Assembly: GCA_001805445.1 (NCBI GenBank)
Contig: MHGF01000003.1
Location: forward strand, 312,429 to 360,027
Direction: 5' to 3'
Origin: Omnitrophica WOR_2 bacterium GWF2_43_52
Lineage (GTDB): Bacteria > Omnitrophota > Gorgyraeia > Gygaellales > UBA12090
Length of the DNA stretch: 47,599 nucleotides
The position numbers were made by a program, and so were the translations under genes. Below, piece by piece: positions 1-40,622 of the stretch; the stretch's first letter is position 1, and the number at the start of each line of letters is the position of its first letter. The notes beneath the pieces are model-generated. The model was not told the origin of the DNA. It did not search any database and saw only the letters and a list, made by a program, of their open reading frames with translations.

Positions 1-3000
1 ACCCCACTCTGACGGATAATCGTGAACTTTATATGACCACTGGCTCCAACTCCAGCCCAAGCCATTATATTTTCCCATATGCAATTCCCATATGGCCGCG
101 TCATTAAACCCGTTAAATTCACCAACCAGCACAGGGACACGATACTGCGATTGCTTTGACTGCGAAAGCTTACTGTTGAGATAGGTAACTGTTTCCTGAT
201 AATTCATTGTGCCATCTATTTCGCCATTCTCATCAAACGTGAAACCATAATAATGGAACTGATACATCAGATTATTCCATCCGTACACCGCGGGATTAGG
301 CAAGGTATCCCAATCATTATCTGAAGGAATGCTTTCCATTACAATAAGATGATTACTGTCAGAGGCGCCACCTGAGGCCAGGGGATCCCTGATGACATCG
401 TATATCCTGTCATATAAATTCCATAAAGCCTGATAGCCATCGGTAATTTGCGGATAATAATCCTTCGTAATCGCGCCAAATGGTTCATTGAGCAGGTCGT
501 AACCGATAACCGTCGTATCATTTTTATAATGCAGCGCTATCGCCTTCCATAGTTCAAGCAAACGCTCTCTATAGATCTCGTTTGCAGGGTCAAACAGCTT
601 GTTGTAACCTTTTCGCCCTGTATGCATCTCTTTGCTTTGCCCACCCGGGGCGCCGTGAAGATCAAGCAGGACGTATATGCCCCGGTTGCCGCAGTATTCC
701 ACAATACGGTCAAGAGCGCTAAAATCAAAGGCGGTGTCCTGCCACTGGCCGTTATCGCTTAAAGAGCGGATAGTTTCATAATACATTGGCAGGCGGATAA
801 AATTAATACCCATTCGCGCCAGATTATCCATATCTTCTTCCTGAAGGTATGTTTGCTGGTAGTGACGTTTTAAAGCCTTTGCCTTTTCCCCACCGATATC
901 CGCGCGCGTAGTCAATGCCTGGGTCATAGAATAATCATCAGGAAAATCTTCTTCCAGAGAACTGTTACTGCCGAAAAACATCCATGGCTCAAGCAAGAAG
1001 GCATTTCCTAAATTAACACCCCTTAAAGAAACAAGCGGCCCTGTAGCTTTTTCTCTCAAGGCCGTCCCGTTTGCCTTAACAAATGCGGCAGGATCATAAA
1101 GGATAGCCGGGCTAAAAACGCCTGCCTCAAGAATAGTCCCTGAGGTATTCTGCCTCACAGGCCGCACCCTGTACCACTTGCCCTGCGTTGCCCAAAGAGG
1201 CGGAGGAACCTTGTATGTCCCTAAATAAATCCTTTTCCACGCCCCGAATCTTGAATTACCTTCCTGAATCTCGTATGAGCCGGCCTGCGGGATAAACGTC
1301 CAGTCCACAACGCCCTGCTGAATAAGCTCTTCCTTTTTGATAAGGCTAAGCTTAGGCTGATATTCAACCGTATCGCTCCAATCTGAATAATATGCGACAT
1401 TGCCTTGAGATGAACTTTGCGCGGTTTGCCAACGCAGGCGAAGCCATGCCTTATTCAATCGGTTACTCACAAAAAGGTTATTACTGCCCGAATAAATCGT
1501 CTGCCAGGGGCCGTCAGCGCCTTGAGTGCTTTGCTGAAGCGTATAGGTAACCGCGGAGACAGCGGGTTTCCAGGAAACAATTCCTGAAGACAAATAGAGA
1601 GTATCAATCACCGGAGGCTCAGTTTTTGCCGCGCGGATATCATCAAAGTAATACGTCCCCGGCCAGTAAGCTATCAGCTCTATTTTGTTACTATCCTCAA
1701 GTTTAAAATCGTCCGGTAATTCGCTAAAGGGCACCGCCAGCCGTGTCCATCTGCCGTATTCCGCTGAGCGTTTAGTCCAGATTTCAAAACCCTTCGCGAA
1801 ATAATTCTTATGATCGAAAAATTTCACCGCCATATTGTTGGCAAGGCGGTTCTGCCCATATTCCCTAACCCAAAAAGTCAGGTGGTCATAGAGCTCGGGG
1901 TCTATTGATTGAGGGGCTAAATTCACGTGCCAGAAATCCTGCGCCAAACAGTTATCAGGGGAATCACAGCGTTTTTCCTGCGATTTTATCCCAATACCGC
2001 CCCACTTTGAGGTAGTTACCAGCTTAAGCGACTGCGTTGACTCCTGCGCTAAGGATGAAAGCGATACCACCCCGCCATCCCAACTCCACGCGCACTCACC
2101 CGGATTAGAAGACGGGCAAGACCACGGCTCAAATGCCTGATAAACCCTATCCTCACCGACTATCGCGATATCATCTACATAATAGGTGCCGTCCCAATAA
2201 TTATAGAATTCTATCTTATCAATATCGTTAAGCTCAAAATCAGACGGCAGCTGGGTAAAAAGGACACTCAGCTTAGTCCATTTTTTTATCTCAGCCTGTT
2301 TTGTAGTCCAGACCCAAAAACCGTCTTTGTCATTCTGAGGATCATAAACATACTTGTTATGGTCAAAGAATTTGACCGCAACTGTATTTGGGGCATTGTT
2401 TGAAGGATTAGCCCATATCCAAAAATCCATACGGTCATGGCGCTGGGGCTCTACATTTGTATGCCATTGCTGGATTTGGGCTGCAACCGCAGTACCTCCG
2501 AAAACACCTGAAGGCATCCCATAAGGTATAGTAAACTTCCATGCCTGGCTTCCGGAATGGACCTGTTCCGAAGAAAGCCCCGCGCTGACACCGTATGCGT
2601 CATTAATCGGCCAGCCATAGGTTCCGCCTGAGCCGTTTGCGGCTTCAAAGTTCTGATACACAATCCCGTGAGAAAGCCCATCGCATAAATTCCTGATCTC
2701 AACAGCGCTTAAAATACGGTTATAAACGCGGATATCATCAATCAAGCCATGGAATGAGCGTTCATTCGGCCTCCTGCCGATATAGATATCATAAGATGTT
2801 TGGGGCGTAAAAATACCGAGATTTTTTTTATTCGCGAGCGCACCGTCTATATAGACCGCGGCATCTCCTGTCTTATCGTCATAAGTAACCGCGATATGAT
2901 GCCACTGATTAACAGATGCGTTGCCTGTATTTATCACATGGTCAATATCATTGCCTTGCGTATCAACAAAGTTAGCGCCTGAACCCGCGCCCTGCCACTG

Positions 3001-4047
3001 ATACCCGGTAACATTAACCCACATGTGCGCGCCGCTCGTATTTCCGTTATTCCATTCAATAATCGGCCCTTGCTTGGTATCGTAAATGTTATACCAACCG
3101 CACAGCGTTATCTGGCCTTTTACATCCAGCATCCCGCTTTTAGGAATCTTTATCGCGTCGTTAAGGCCGTCAAAGAAATAAGCCCCCCCATTTTTGCCGT
3201 TTGTGGAATAGCTGGCACCCATAACAGTACCGGTATGGCCATTGTTACTATCATCATGCACCTCTGCCCCGCTATTTTTGTCAAAGGTATAATGCAGCAC
3301 TAACCCTGCTTCTTCCCCACGATACAGCGTAAGCACTTCAGCGGCATTTAAGGGCCGCTCGTAAATCCGTGCCTCATCCACCATCCCCTTCCAATAGCGC
3401 TGGGATTCAAGAGAATAGCCGTTACCTATGGCGACGTTTGCAAAAGTGAGGGTAGTTTGCTTATATTCTCCGGCGGTAAGCGGCAAATCCGGATGCACCA
3501 GAGAATTGGGGTCGGGATGCGGGTTCTTGAACTTTAATTCACCATCTAAGTATCCATAAACGTTATTTTTATCCCAGACATAGGCAACATGATACCAGCG
3601 TTTAGGCTGCAAGGTAGCGGTAAAAAGATCGCCTCTGCCTAAGCCATGCCCGCCGCCGCTTAAATAACCCGCGGAGCTGATTTCAAAACGGATATTATCA
3701 TCCCAGCTGGCGTAATCGGTAGAAAATGGGTTACGCCAATTTTCAACCGCATCAGCGTAAATCCAAAAAGAGATTGCCCCTGTTTCATGGTAGCCCAGGT
3801 CTCCTGCCAAGATATAATCATCTTGTCCGTCAAAACGGTAAGCGCCGGAAAACCTGCCTGCCGACGTATAAGCAGCACCGTAGATAGTACCACTGTGGCC
3901 GCCACCGCTTTCGTCAGTAACATGGCCGCCTTCATTCGTGTCAAATGAATAATAAAGGATAAGTCCATCGGTAATTTCCGCAAATGCCGGCGTTTTACAG
4001 GGAATTAATAGTCCCATTAGCAGTAAAATGATTGATAGTTTATTCAT
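1..4047 (-). CDS. Giant secreted multidomain glycoside hydrolase, GH5-like (3' partial)
   Basis: Open for 1349 codons from ATG 4047 (AAAGG six bases upstream) to the window edge, so the C-terminus is missing. Residues 1-23 form a type I signal peptide ending AFA. Two LamG/concanavalin-type domains follow (about 26-235 and 236-450), each starting with L-x-YYSFD or L-HYTFD and ending with an IDD/VDEARIY motif. Two related jelly-roll modules follow (about 452-628 and 632-807), each ending YYVDDI or YYFDDI, then fibronectin-like sequence to about 985. The catalytic part opens with LRGVNLGN...LEPW, typical of GH5 exo-beta-1,3-glucanases. It shows LLNEPFG with acid/base Glu1188 and VLVGEFNG with candidate nucleophile Glu1310. 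Domain order suggests polysaccharide binding plus hydrolysis outside the cytoplasm. The substrate (beta-glucan) is inferred only. Confidence 0.9.
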   Translation of the reverse strand, partial: MNKLSIILLLMGLLIPCKTPAFAEITDGLILYYSFDTNEGGHVTDESGGGHSGTIYGAAYTSAGRFSGAYRFDGQDDYILAGDLGYHETGAISFWIYADAVENWRNPFSTDYASWDDNIRFEISSAGYLSGGGHGLGRGDLFTATLQPKRWYHVAYVWDKNNVYGYLDGELKFKNPHPDPNSLVHPDLPLTAGEYKQTTLTFANVAIGNGYSLESQRYWKGMVDEARIYERPLNAAEVLTLYRGEEAGLVLHYTFDKNSGAEVHDDSNNGHTGTVMGASYSTNGKNGGAYFFDGLNDAIKIPKSGMLDVKGQITLCGWYNIYDTKQGPIIEWNNGNTSGAHMWVNVTGYQWQGAGSGANFVDTQGNDIDHVINTGNASVNQWHHIAVTYDDKTGDAAVYIDGALANKKNLGIFTPQTSYDIYIGRRPNERSFHGLIDDIRVYNRILSAVEIRNLCDGLSHGIVYQNFEAANGSGGTYGWPINDAYGVSAGLSSEQVHSGSQAWKFTIPYGMPSGVFGGTAVAAQIQQWHTNVEPQRHDRMDFWIWANPSNNAPNTVAVKFFDHNKYVYDPQNDKDGFWVWTTKQAEIKKWTKLSVLFTQLPSDFELNDIDKIEFYNYWDGTYYVDDIAIVGEDRVYQAFEPWSCPSSNPGECAWSWDGGVVSLSSLAQESTQSLKLVTTSKWGGIGIKSQEKRCDSPDNCLAQDFWHVNLAPQSIDPELYDHLTFWVREYGQNRLANNMAVKFFDHKNYFAKGFEIWTKRSAEYGRWTRLAVPFSELPDDFKLEDSNKIELIAYWPGTYYFDDIRAAKTEPPVIDTLYLSSGIVSWKPAVSAVTYTLQQSTQGADGPWQTIYSGSNNLFVSNRLNKAWLRLRWQTAQSSSQGNVAYYSDWSDTVEYQPKLSLIKKEELIQQGVVDWTFIPQAGSYEIQEGNSRFGAWKRIYLGTYKVPPPLWATQGKWYRVRPVRQNTSGTILEAGVFSPAILYDPAAFVKANGTALREKATGPLVSLRGVNLGNAFLLEPWMFFGSNSSLEEDFPDDYSMTQALTTRADIGGEKAKALKRHYQQTYLQEEDMDNLARMGINFIRLPMYYETIRSLSDNGQWQDTAFDFSALDRIVEYCGNRGIYVLLDLHGAPGGQSKEMHTGRKGYNKLFDPANEIYRERLLELWKAIALHYKNDTTVIGYDLLNEPFGAITKDYYPQITDGYQALWNLYDRIYDVIRDPLASGGASDSNHLIVMESIPSDNDWDTLPNPAVYGWNNLMYQFHYYGFTFDENGEIDGTMNYQETVTYLNSKLSQSKQSQYRVPVLVGEFNGFNDAAIWELHMGKYNGLGWSWSQWSYKVHDYPSEWG

Positions 4048-38643: not shown

Positions 38644-39111
38644 TTAAAACCTAAAATTACCTTGAGGATTTTCTTTTTGCACTATTCCTATTATCAGCCT
38701 GACAAACTCCTCTGCCGTACGCAAGGACTCGACCGCCTCGGTACGCGAAATAGTTGTGTCTATCTCGTAAGTAAAAATATTCCGCTTCCTGCGCATCCGG
38801 TCAAAACGCTCAATTATCCCGACATATTCTTTTCCAAGGGCCTCACCCATAAACCGCACCACTGTCTTATGCTGATACCCGTTAGACGGCCTAAAACCCT
38901 TCAAGAGCATAAAACCTCTTGCCGCCCTAAGCATGGCAAGATAGGCAACGGTATAAGTAATCCCTTCGTCAATCTTTAAGTTAGCCTTGGAGGCTAAAAG
39001 GTCCTTTGTACTGCGCTTGAGAAGTTTTTCTACCGCAGATACAGAAGATTTCTGCTTTTGAATCAAACCTCCGGCCAAAGATTCGCTTATAAATTTATCA
39101 TACGTCATCAT
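38644..39111 (-). CDS. HEPN-domain toxin of MNT-HEPN pair
   Basis: 155 residues, all-helical. TYTVAYLAMLRAARGFMLLKGFRP and the C-terminal FDRMRRKRNIFTYEID are typical of HEPN proteins. The Rx4-6H RNase motif appears as RNIFTY (Arg110, Asn111, Tyr115), that is, with Tyr in place of His. It forms a toxin-antitoxin unit with the overlapping nucleotidyltransferase (14-bp overlap; ATG 39111 or 39108). In studied pairs HEPN is an RNase toxin silenced by AMPylation from its MNT partner; here that is by analogy. Confidence 0.87.
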   Translation of the reverse strand: MMTYDKFISESLAGGLIQKQKSSVSAVEKLLKRSTKDLLASKANLKIDEGITYTVAYLAMLRAARGFMLLKGFRPSNGYQHKTVVRFMGEALGKEYVGIIERFDRMRRKRNIFTYEIDTTISRTEAVESLRTAEEFVRLIIGIVQKENPQGNFRF

Positions 39112-39670
39112 TATTTCCTATAAGCATTATTTTAGGATTCCCAAGGAGATCCATAATAAATGAATCTTTTTTCTTTTTTTTCTTTTTGTATTCTTCCCGG
39201 CTGAAAATCGTATAATTAACTTCTCTTTTTATGGTATTTTCTATCTTGTTCAACTGCCGGATAAGCTGCCCCTCATCAATATCCCCTATAAGAAATACAT
39301 CCACGTCGCTTTTTGCCTTTTCCTTCTGCTTAGCGAAAGATCCGTAGATAAAAGCCCCCTTAACGCCTTTTAGCTTTAAAACAGCTTCCTTAATAAGCCC
39401 TTCGATGCCAATAGTTTTACGCACGATGCTCTTTAACTCATCAAAAAGCGGATAAGCGGTATTAAGGCGGAAATAAACAAGATTTCCTTTTTTCTCAGAA
39501 AGAAAAACCCCTTCCTCTTCTAACCGGAGGAGTTCTTTACGAACAATACTTACCGGGATATCCAGCTTCCGTTCAAGCTCCCTAAGATAAAATAAGCTCT
39601 CGGGGTTAGTGAAATAAAGCTGAAAGATAGCCGAACGCGCCTTTGATTTGAATAATCTATATATATCCAT
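39098..39670 (-). CDS. HTH-MNT antitoxin (nucleotidyltransferase with N-terminal winged helix)
   Basis: 190 residues. The N-terminal winged helix (about 1-75: FYLRELERKLDIPVSIVRKELLRLEEEGVFLSEKKGNLVYFRLN) reads like an ArsR-type DNA-binding domain. The nucleotidyltransferase domain carries GSFAKQKEKAKSDVDVFLIG (Gly110-Ser111, Asp122, Asp124). Lys165-171 form a run of about seven lysines encoded by an A-rich tract. Fusion of a DNA-binding domain to the antitoxin fits direct autorepression at the two palindromic operators upstream (39672-39715). Coupled to the HEPN toxin by a 14-bp overlap. Confidence 0.9.
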   Translation of the reverse strand: MDIYRLFKSKARSAIFQLYFTNPESLFYLRELERKLDIPVSIVRKELLRLEEEGVFLSEKKGNLVYFRLNTAYPLFDELKSIVRKTIGIEGLIKEAVLKLKGVKGAFIYGSFAKQKEKAKSDVDVFLIGDIDEGQLIRQLNKIENTIKREVNYTIFSREEYKKKKKKKDSFIMDLLGNPKIMLIGNNDDV

Positions 39671-39671
39671 A

Positions 39672-39715
39672 TTGTAACCTCTTTAGGTTACAATTGTAAT
39701 ATATACAGGTTACAA
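39672..39715 (-). promoter_or_regulatory. Two abutting 22-bp operators of the MNT-HEPN operon
   Basis: Operator 1 (39672-39693) is a perfect palindrome TTGTAACCT-CTTT-AGGTTACAA. Operator 2 (39694-39715) directly adjoins it with the same 9-4-9 geometry: TTGTAATAT-ATAC-AGGTTACAA, six of nine arm positions conserved on the left. Operator 2 fills the promoter spacer and -10; operator 1 covers the transcription start region up to the ATG. Confidence 0.88.
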
Positions 39716-39721
39716 TGTCAA
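39693..39721 (-). promoter_or_regulatory. Promoter of MNT-HEPN operon, TTGACA-17-TACAAT
   Basis: TTGACA at 39716-39721, 17-bp spacer, TACAAT at 39693-39698. Confidence 0.88.
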
Positions 39722-39915: not shown

Positions 39916-39961
39916 GGCAATCAGGGGACACAATACTTGGCAATCAGGGGACACAATACTT
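39916..39961. repeat. Tandem 23-bp duplication of RAYT element end
   Basis: Two identical 23-bp units (39916-39938, 39939-39961), each containing AATCAGGGGACACAATACTT. The second carries the right inverted end of the transposase element. Confidence 0.92.
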
Positions 39962-40622
39962 ATTTCTCCTTCATCTTACGTCCCGCTCTCTTCTTCTTAA
40001 GATTTATTTTGAGCAAATCCTCCAGTTTCTCTATAAATGGAGCGCCTCCTAACGGCCGTCCTGTCCGCTCATGCAGCTGAAGTAATCTACTATCATCATC
40101 TCCGAATGCTGTAGTAAGAAACTTTTCCCAGCTTCCCACAAGTCCTCTCAAAAGGCTGTCTTTTACCGGAAAACTATTGTCTAACATCATATGCTGCCGG
40201 GCACTTGACCATTTATAATCCCATGGCTTATTTACCATCTTTGCTTTTACAGGATTTAAAAGTATATAGCGGGTTGCCGCTAATAGATACTGTTCATCTA
40301 ACACATACGATGAGAATCTTCCCTGCCAAAGATATCCTCTCCATTTTTCTCTGAAATTAATAAATCTTGTATAATTACGGTGGGTTTCGCCTATGGCTTG
40401 AGCCAGGCTTCCATCTTCATGAGGAATTGCGATGAGGTGTATATGGTTGGGCATTAAGCAATACGCCAGAATATCAACCTTAAATTTCTCTGAATAGCTA
40501 TTGAGGAATCTAAGATATTCACGATAGTCATCTTCCTTAAAGAACACCTTCTGGCGACGGTTACCTCTTTGGATTATATGATGGGGAAATTCAGGAACAA
40601 CAACTCTCGCTATCCTTGCCAT
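39960..40622 (-). CDS. REP-associated tyrosine transposase (Y1/IS200-like, RAYT)
   Basis: 220 residues. MARIARVVVPEFPHHIIQRGNRRQKVFF is the standard RAYT opening. The HUH motif region is YCLMPNHIHLIAIP. The WQGRFSSYVLDEQYLLAATRYILLNPVKAKMV and WDYKWSSARQH segments match the family. The C-terminal LHERTGRPLGGAPFIEKLE and a basic tail follow. It cuts and joins single-stranded DNA at palindromic REP-like sequences. The promoter lies at 40629-40657 with the -10 only six bases before ATG (leaderless). The gene appears intact. Confidence 0.95.
   Translation of the reverse strand: MARIARVVVPEFPHHIIQRGNRRQKVFFKEDDYREYLRFLNSYSEKFKVDILAYCLMPNHIHLIAIPHEDGSLAQAIGETHRNYTRFINFREKWRGYLWQGRFSSYVLDEQYLLAATRYILLNPVKAKMVNKPWDYKWSSARQHMMLDNSFPVKDSLLRGLVGSWEKFLTTAFGDDDSRLLQLHERTGRPLGGAPFIEKLEDLLKINLKKKRAGRKMKEK

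Follow-up and report, generated by a model that had tools for sequence, protein, structure and literature searches.

MNT-HEPN modules have been described without a DNA-binding part, which left open how their expression is set; Makarova 2009 (PMC2701414) thought it improbable that the antitoxin regulates transcription and suggested a DNA-binding part acting in trans. The locus analysed here, within a 47,599-nucleotide stretch of contig MHGF01000003.1 of Omnitrophica WOR_2 bacterium GWF2_43_52 (the window), raises this question in a particular form: two abutting palindromes fill the promoter of a gene pair in which a winged helix-turn-helix (wHTH) domain is joined to the minimal nucleotidyltransferase (MNT), and it has to be asked which protein reads them and to what effect. 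Comparison of sequences across the family leads to a probability of roughly 85% that the adjacent wHTH-MNT protein uses the paired sites as its operators and through them represses the wHTH-MNT/HEPN operon.

Promoter and paired palindromes

On the minus strand, the promoter of the gene pair leads into the start codon at 39670 with the sequence TTGACA-TTGTAACCTGTATATAT-TACAAT-TGTAACCTAAAGAGGTTACAAT-ATG. This TTGACA-N17-TACAAT arrangement (−35 hexamer at 39716–39721, −10 hexamer at 39693–39698) is sigma-70-like at 11 of 12 positions and represents the top promoter match in the region. Two 22-bp sites on the same strand abut at 39693/39694 with zero gap. The start-proximal site (39672–39693) is a perfect 9-4-9 palindrome, TTGTAACCT-CTTT-AGGTTACAA; it spans the last base of the −10 hexamer, the start region and a putative Shine-Dalgarno-like AGAGG (39678–39682, 7 nt before the ATG), and ends one base before the ATG. 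The promoter-distal site (39694–39715), TTGTAATAT-ATAC-AGGTTACAA, agrees at 7 of 9 arm positions and spans the spacer between −35 and −10 as well as all but one base of the −10 hexamer, which straddles the operator junction. The initial annotation had described two 22-bp operators placed end to end, one over the spacer and −10 and the other over the start region, and the coordinates bear out this length, abutment and placement; both of its 9-4-9 palindromes are present, but the perfect TTGTAACCT arms that it gave to each occur in only one of them, and the range 39672–39721 that it assigned to the operators holds both sites but also takes in the −35 hexamer.

When the window was searched for the pattern TTGTAACCTNNNNAGGTTACAA with at most three mismatches, only the two operators were found, against a chance expectation of 0.02; in the whole genome the same pattern gave the two operators plus three weaker matches with two to three mismatches, and a reversed control pattern gave one match per strand. 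A wider regulon was rejected: the other genomic matches are comparable to the reversed control, and the strongest, with two mismatches, sits inside an ORF. Next to the promoter is a gene for a Y1 transposase (IS200/REP-associated, PF01797; 39960–40622, minus strand), and a ~21-nt tandem repeat (GGCAATCAGGGGACACAATACTT-like, 39918–39963) lies between the two.

The wHTH-MNT protein

The 190-aa product of the first gene (39098–39670, minus strand), the proposed autorepressor and antitoxin, combines an N-terminal wHTH (residues 10–69; 39464–39643, minus strand) with an MNT domain (residues 91–186; 39113–39400, minus strand; Pfam PF18765/PF01909). The wHTH was modelled by AlphaFold with a mean pLDDT of 89.7, and its nearest folds in Foldseek were SqrR, SmtB and other ArsR-family repressors; the model places the recognition helix at residues 40–52 (39515–39553, minus strand). 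Model and fold comparison agree with the earlier claim that the antitoxin carries a winged-helix domain of its own. The MNT motif GSX10DXD occupies residues 110–124, and G110, S111, D122 and D124 are invariant in 56 sequences. Asn152 (39215–39217), nearly invariant at 96%, lies on the strand where nucleotidyltransferases usually have their third catalytic carboxylate, and aligns with an Asp of 2rff.

A paralogue within the same genome (L006; C38:28166–28639), 27% identical, has TTGACA-N17-TATCAT followed by a single 22-bp palindrome, CATGCTCCATGAAAGGAGCATG. The wHTH is also found, at 30–41% identity, within open frames of ~520–545 aa in many related genomes (e.g., G083:C26:13804–14049); in these frames the MNT part of the wHTH-MNT protein gives no match.

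Recurrence of the paired sites among homologues

The initial annotation had proposed a search of related HTH-MNT genes for the same paired operators, and had named their absence upstream of close homologues as evidence against its prediction. This test did not refute the prediction: of 118 homologous loci, most carry paired sites, and at 50–69% protein identity loci from Deltaproteobacteria, Aerophobetes, WOR-3 and Omnitrophota have both sites at the corresponding position. Information content across 23 loci with this half-site class is 1.45 bits per position in the operators vs. 0.16 in the flank upstream of −35; the likeness of the sites is therefore not a matter of recent common DNA. For the 114 loci with enough upstream sequence for palindrome scoring, the double-palindrome score averaged 19.1 upstream, whereas coding controls averaged 14.4. 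At 68 of these loci the score was higher than in every one of 40 dinucleotide shuffles of the locus itself; the ~40% that fall short do so partly because half-sites diverge. No clear operator pair was found at L068, L059, L131 and L132. The start codon follows 0–5 bases after the proximal site in most loci, and TTGACA, matched at five or more of its six positions, stands 16–17 bp before the −10 in 54 of 71 loci.

The half-sites vary by subfamily while their geometry stays constant: the window belongs to the class GTAACC/GTAATA, other classes read GTACTC (e.g., L022), GTTCTC (L095), GTTGTA (L029), GTATGC (L069) and GAACCC (L089), and across classes the site length is 21 or 22 bp, which amounts to some two turns of the helix. 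Because the −10 constrains the half-site that it overlaps, a score based on palindromes only failed to pick up several clear pairs, and it was replaced by a junction-aware parse. The half-site that overlaps the −10 keeps GTA, because TACAAT requires it, where the other half-sites read GTT (13/13) or GAA (3/3), although this 16/16 retention is partly selected for by a parse that favours TACAATT at the junction.

Covariation of half-sites with the wHTH

Half-site distance was correlated with wHTH distance (Mantel r 0.71, n = 71), also given MNT distance (0.63, permutation p 0.001), whereas given wHTH distance it was related neither to MNT distance (−0.03) nor to HEPN distance (0.03); these permutations ignore phylogeny, and locus pairs are not independent. 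The eight alignment columns with the most mutual information on the half-site (39, 42, 29, 44, 30, 33, 43, 48) all fall within residues 29–48, in helix 2 (29–36) and the recognition helix (40–52). Pairs of loci with a similar recognition helix and a dissimilar MNT had an operator distance of 0.18 (142 pairs), vs. 0.45 where the recognition helix was dissimilar and the MNT similar (72 pairs); likewise, the distance was 0.13 for a similar wHTH with a dissimilar HEPN (26 pairs) and 0.48 for a dissimilar wHTH with a similar HEPN (14 pairs). At L054 and L020, the operator class matches the locus’s own wHTH, and the HEPN comes from another class; at L014, L016 and L018, the sites are kept with no HEPN within ~1.4 kb downstream. 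Plasmid homologues from Cupriavidus and Bradyrhizobium, which stood outside the covariation tests and serve as an outside check, combine a GAVxREL recognition helix with (G)AACCCA sites, like L089, L101 and L104.

Since the operator follows the wHTH and HEPN-less loci keep their sites, it is very probably the wHTH-MNT fusion that reads the operator; the basis for this conclusion is that domains within one protein behave differently in these comparisons. The proposed antitoxin contains a DNA-binding domain, and its own promoter contains putative operators that covary with it. The prediction of autorepression by an HTH-MNT fusion, rather than by the toxin complex alone, is well supported by the recurrence of the sites, by their covariation with the wHTH and by their presence at loci without HEPN.

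Proposed mechanism and alternatives

One wHTH-MNT dimer would bind each 22-bp site and read it through its recognition helices; two dimers would lie next to each other at a distance of about two helical turns, together covering the DNA from the −35/−10 spacer through the −10 and the transcription start to the ribosome site. The bound dimers would block RNA polymerase and keep the wHTH-MNT/HEPN operon repressed, and the 21–22 bp spacing suggests that they may bind cooperatively. Separately, the MNT would act on HEPN, probably by nucleotidylation, perhaps AMPylation, near the tyrosine of its R-x4-Y motif. Operator and wHTH may travel together as an exchangeable 5′ cassette, joined by recombination to varying MNT and HEPN parts; natural shuffles would arise because the two adjoin at the 5′ end, where one intragenic crossover moves both.

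The repressor might also be a complex of wHTH-MNT with HEPN, in which HEPN is required for operator binding or tunes it. Many type II modules show conditional cooperativity, the wHTH-MNT and HEPN genes overlap and are co-transcribed, and crystal structures from related systems contain MNT and HEPN in complex (8xeh, 9xbd); against this, HEPN divergence is unrelated to operator divergence given wHTH (0.03), L054 and L020 combine a HEPN from another class with the operator type of their own wHTH, and L014, L016 and L018 retain their sites with no HEPN in the ~1.4 kb downstream, so that a repressor dependent on HEPN appears unlikely. Binding-site evidence alone leaves the sign of regulation undefined, and the wHTH-MNT protein might bind as an activator or in another DNA role; yet the sites overlap the spacer, −10 and start of a near-consensus promoter that needs no activator, and operator positions of this kind are typical of repressors, which makes a role other than repression very improbable. 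Hardly credible, and the least probable of these alternatives, is a palindrome that acts in RNA, as a leader hairpin that hides the ribosome site and controls translation. The proximal site contains AGAGG and does fold strongly in the window (−11.5 kcal/mol, z −3.7), but the distal site precedes the transcription start and is absent from the RNA, and homologues keep the half-sites, but their hairpins are either less stable, at about −4 kcal/mol (L040, L043), or displaced; Rfam gave no match, and RNA hairpin control was rejected.

Transcriptional repression by the wHTH-MNT protein is the preferred reading. It can be extended to a self-contained, recombining cassette of operator and wHTH with a readable helix-to-half-site code, in which the same polypeptide would couple enzymatic HEPN control to transcription: the catalytic state of the MNT or HEPN binding would free the operators, and an attack that depletes or engages the protein would induce the whole defence operon. 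This extension is tentative, and as a whole it is considerably more likely to fail than to hold.

The HEPN partner

The second gene encodes a 155-aa HEPN protein (PF05168; 38644–39111, minus strand) and overlaps the wHTH-MNT gene by 14 nt; HEPN was detected at 110 of the 118 loci. The structural model of the protein has a pLDDT of 94.9, with 2hsb as its nearest structure, and Y57, H81, R110 and Y115 are invariant across 48 aligned HEPN proteins. In place of the RX4-6H motif, R-x4-Y (R110, Y115; 38767–38784, minus strand) is found throughout the wHTH-MNT-linked group, with a tyrosine where the histidine is expected; because of this substitution, the role of HEPN as an ordinary RNase toxin appears doubtful, and its assignment as a classical RNase was set aside as unproven. 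The earlier MNT-HEPN label is correct in that a HEPN partner is present, but with RX4-6H missing the word “toxin” is an assumption. HEPN could still modulate DNA binding, in addition to the binding by the wHTH.

Members of HEPN-T (PF05168) often lack the histidine (PMC3710099), and HEPN-T structures (2hsb, 9xbd/9xbc) provide the best sequence and fold matches to the HEPN protein here. HEPN-T and the window’s HEPN have the conserved tyrosine in common; 2hsb and 9xbd read RxxxDY, in contrast to R-N/H-x3-Y here, where no acidic residue precedes the tyrosine. The deposits 9xbd and 9xbc differ at the conserved tyrosine (Y vs. F), which suggests that this residue was studied.

HEPN is broken or split beside an intact operator and wHTH-MNT start at L013, L015, L043, L045 and L052; these cases could be assembly errors, and L015 also has a stop in its own MNT. 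On a Legionella anisa plasmid (L132), more short NTase/HEPN-like frames lie downstream of the pair (2421–3086), annotated as nucleotidyltransferase or aminoglycoside adenylyltransferase domain proteins.

Relationship to known systems

The adjacent genes both match profiles of PDC-M05, a phage defence candidate in PADLOC with the same parts as the pair here (wHTH-MNT to M05A, 5.8e-53; HEPN to M05B, 2.6e-17), and all 56 homologues match M05A. In the papers found, PDC-M05 is described only as NTase plus HEPN, its role being unconfirmed (PMC12988326), or as induced in Burkholderia during phage infection (PMC12584637). As in the type VII MNT-HEPN system HepT-MntA, the NTase gene lies directly upstream of the HEPN gene and overlaps it; the MNT of 8xeh/5yep gives a profile match to the MNT here, and GSX10DXD and the HEPN fold are common to both. 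Unlike HepT-MntA, the pair has an extra N-terminal wHTH, operators, and a HEPN with R-x4-Y instead of RX4-6H, and its score against the NCBIfam MntA equivalog, 22.7 bits, stays below the cut-off of 60. The pair matches the PDC-M05 candidate, as a wHTH-bearing variant of MNT-HEPN and not as canonical HepT-MntA.

The regulatory arrangement proposed here has its counterpart in the type IV system AbiEi/AbiEii, with a wHTH antitoxin, an NTase-fold protein and two inverted repeats at the promoter. AbiE is autorepressed through the two inverted repeats, and the toxin is without effect on binding (PMC3985639); cooperative binding is credited to Hampton 2018 in PMC6929052. AbiE has its wHTH and NTase on two proteins, of which the NTase acts as the toxin, whereas here the two are fused; the AbiE repeats are 11 bp long and 27 bp apart, whereas the 22-bp sites here abut. 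The AbiE Pfam families had no match in this gene pair, which falls outside AbiEi/AbiEii. The locus most likely represents a wHTH-MNT autorepressor arrangement, with AbiEi as the proven analogue. A viral origin was also considered and rejected, as no match was found in phages or viral contigs by protein, or in viral contigs by exact operator pattern.

Significance

That the gene pair is a defence candidate is already known, as is autorepression by wHTH antitoxins; in the non-subscription papers searched, no description was found of operators or of wHTH-operator pairing for the wHTH-MNT/HEPN family, and nothing relevant was found on type VII autoregulation. A large, wHTH-bearing branch of MNT-HEPN appears to carry its own regulator together with its target sites. 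With their matching recognition helices, the many half-site classes would supply orthogonal repressor-operator pairs ready for use, along with a recognition code that can be put to the test. The HEPN RNase histidine is missing family-wide, so that the nature of the “toxin” becomes a question to be asked directly.
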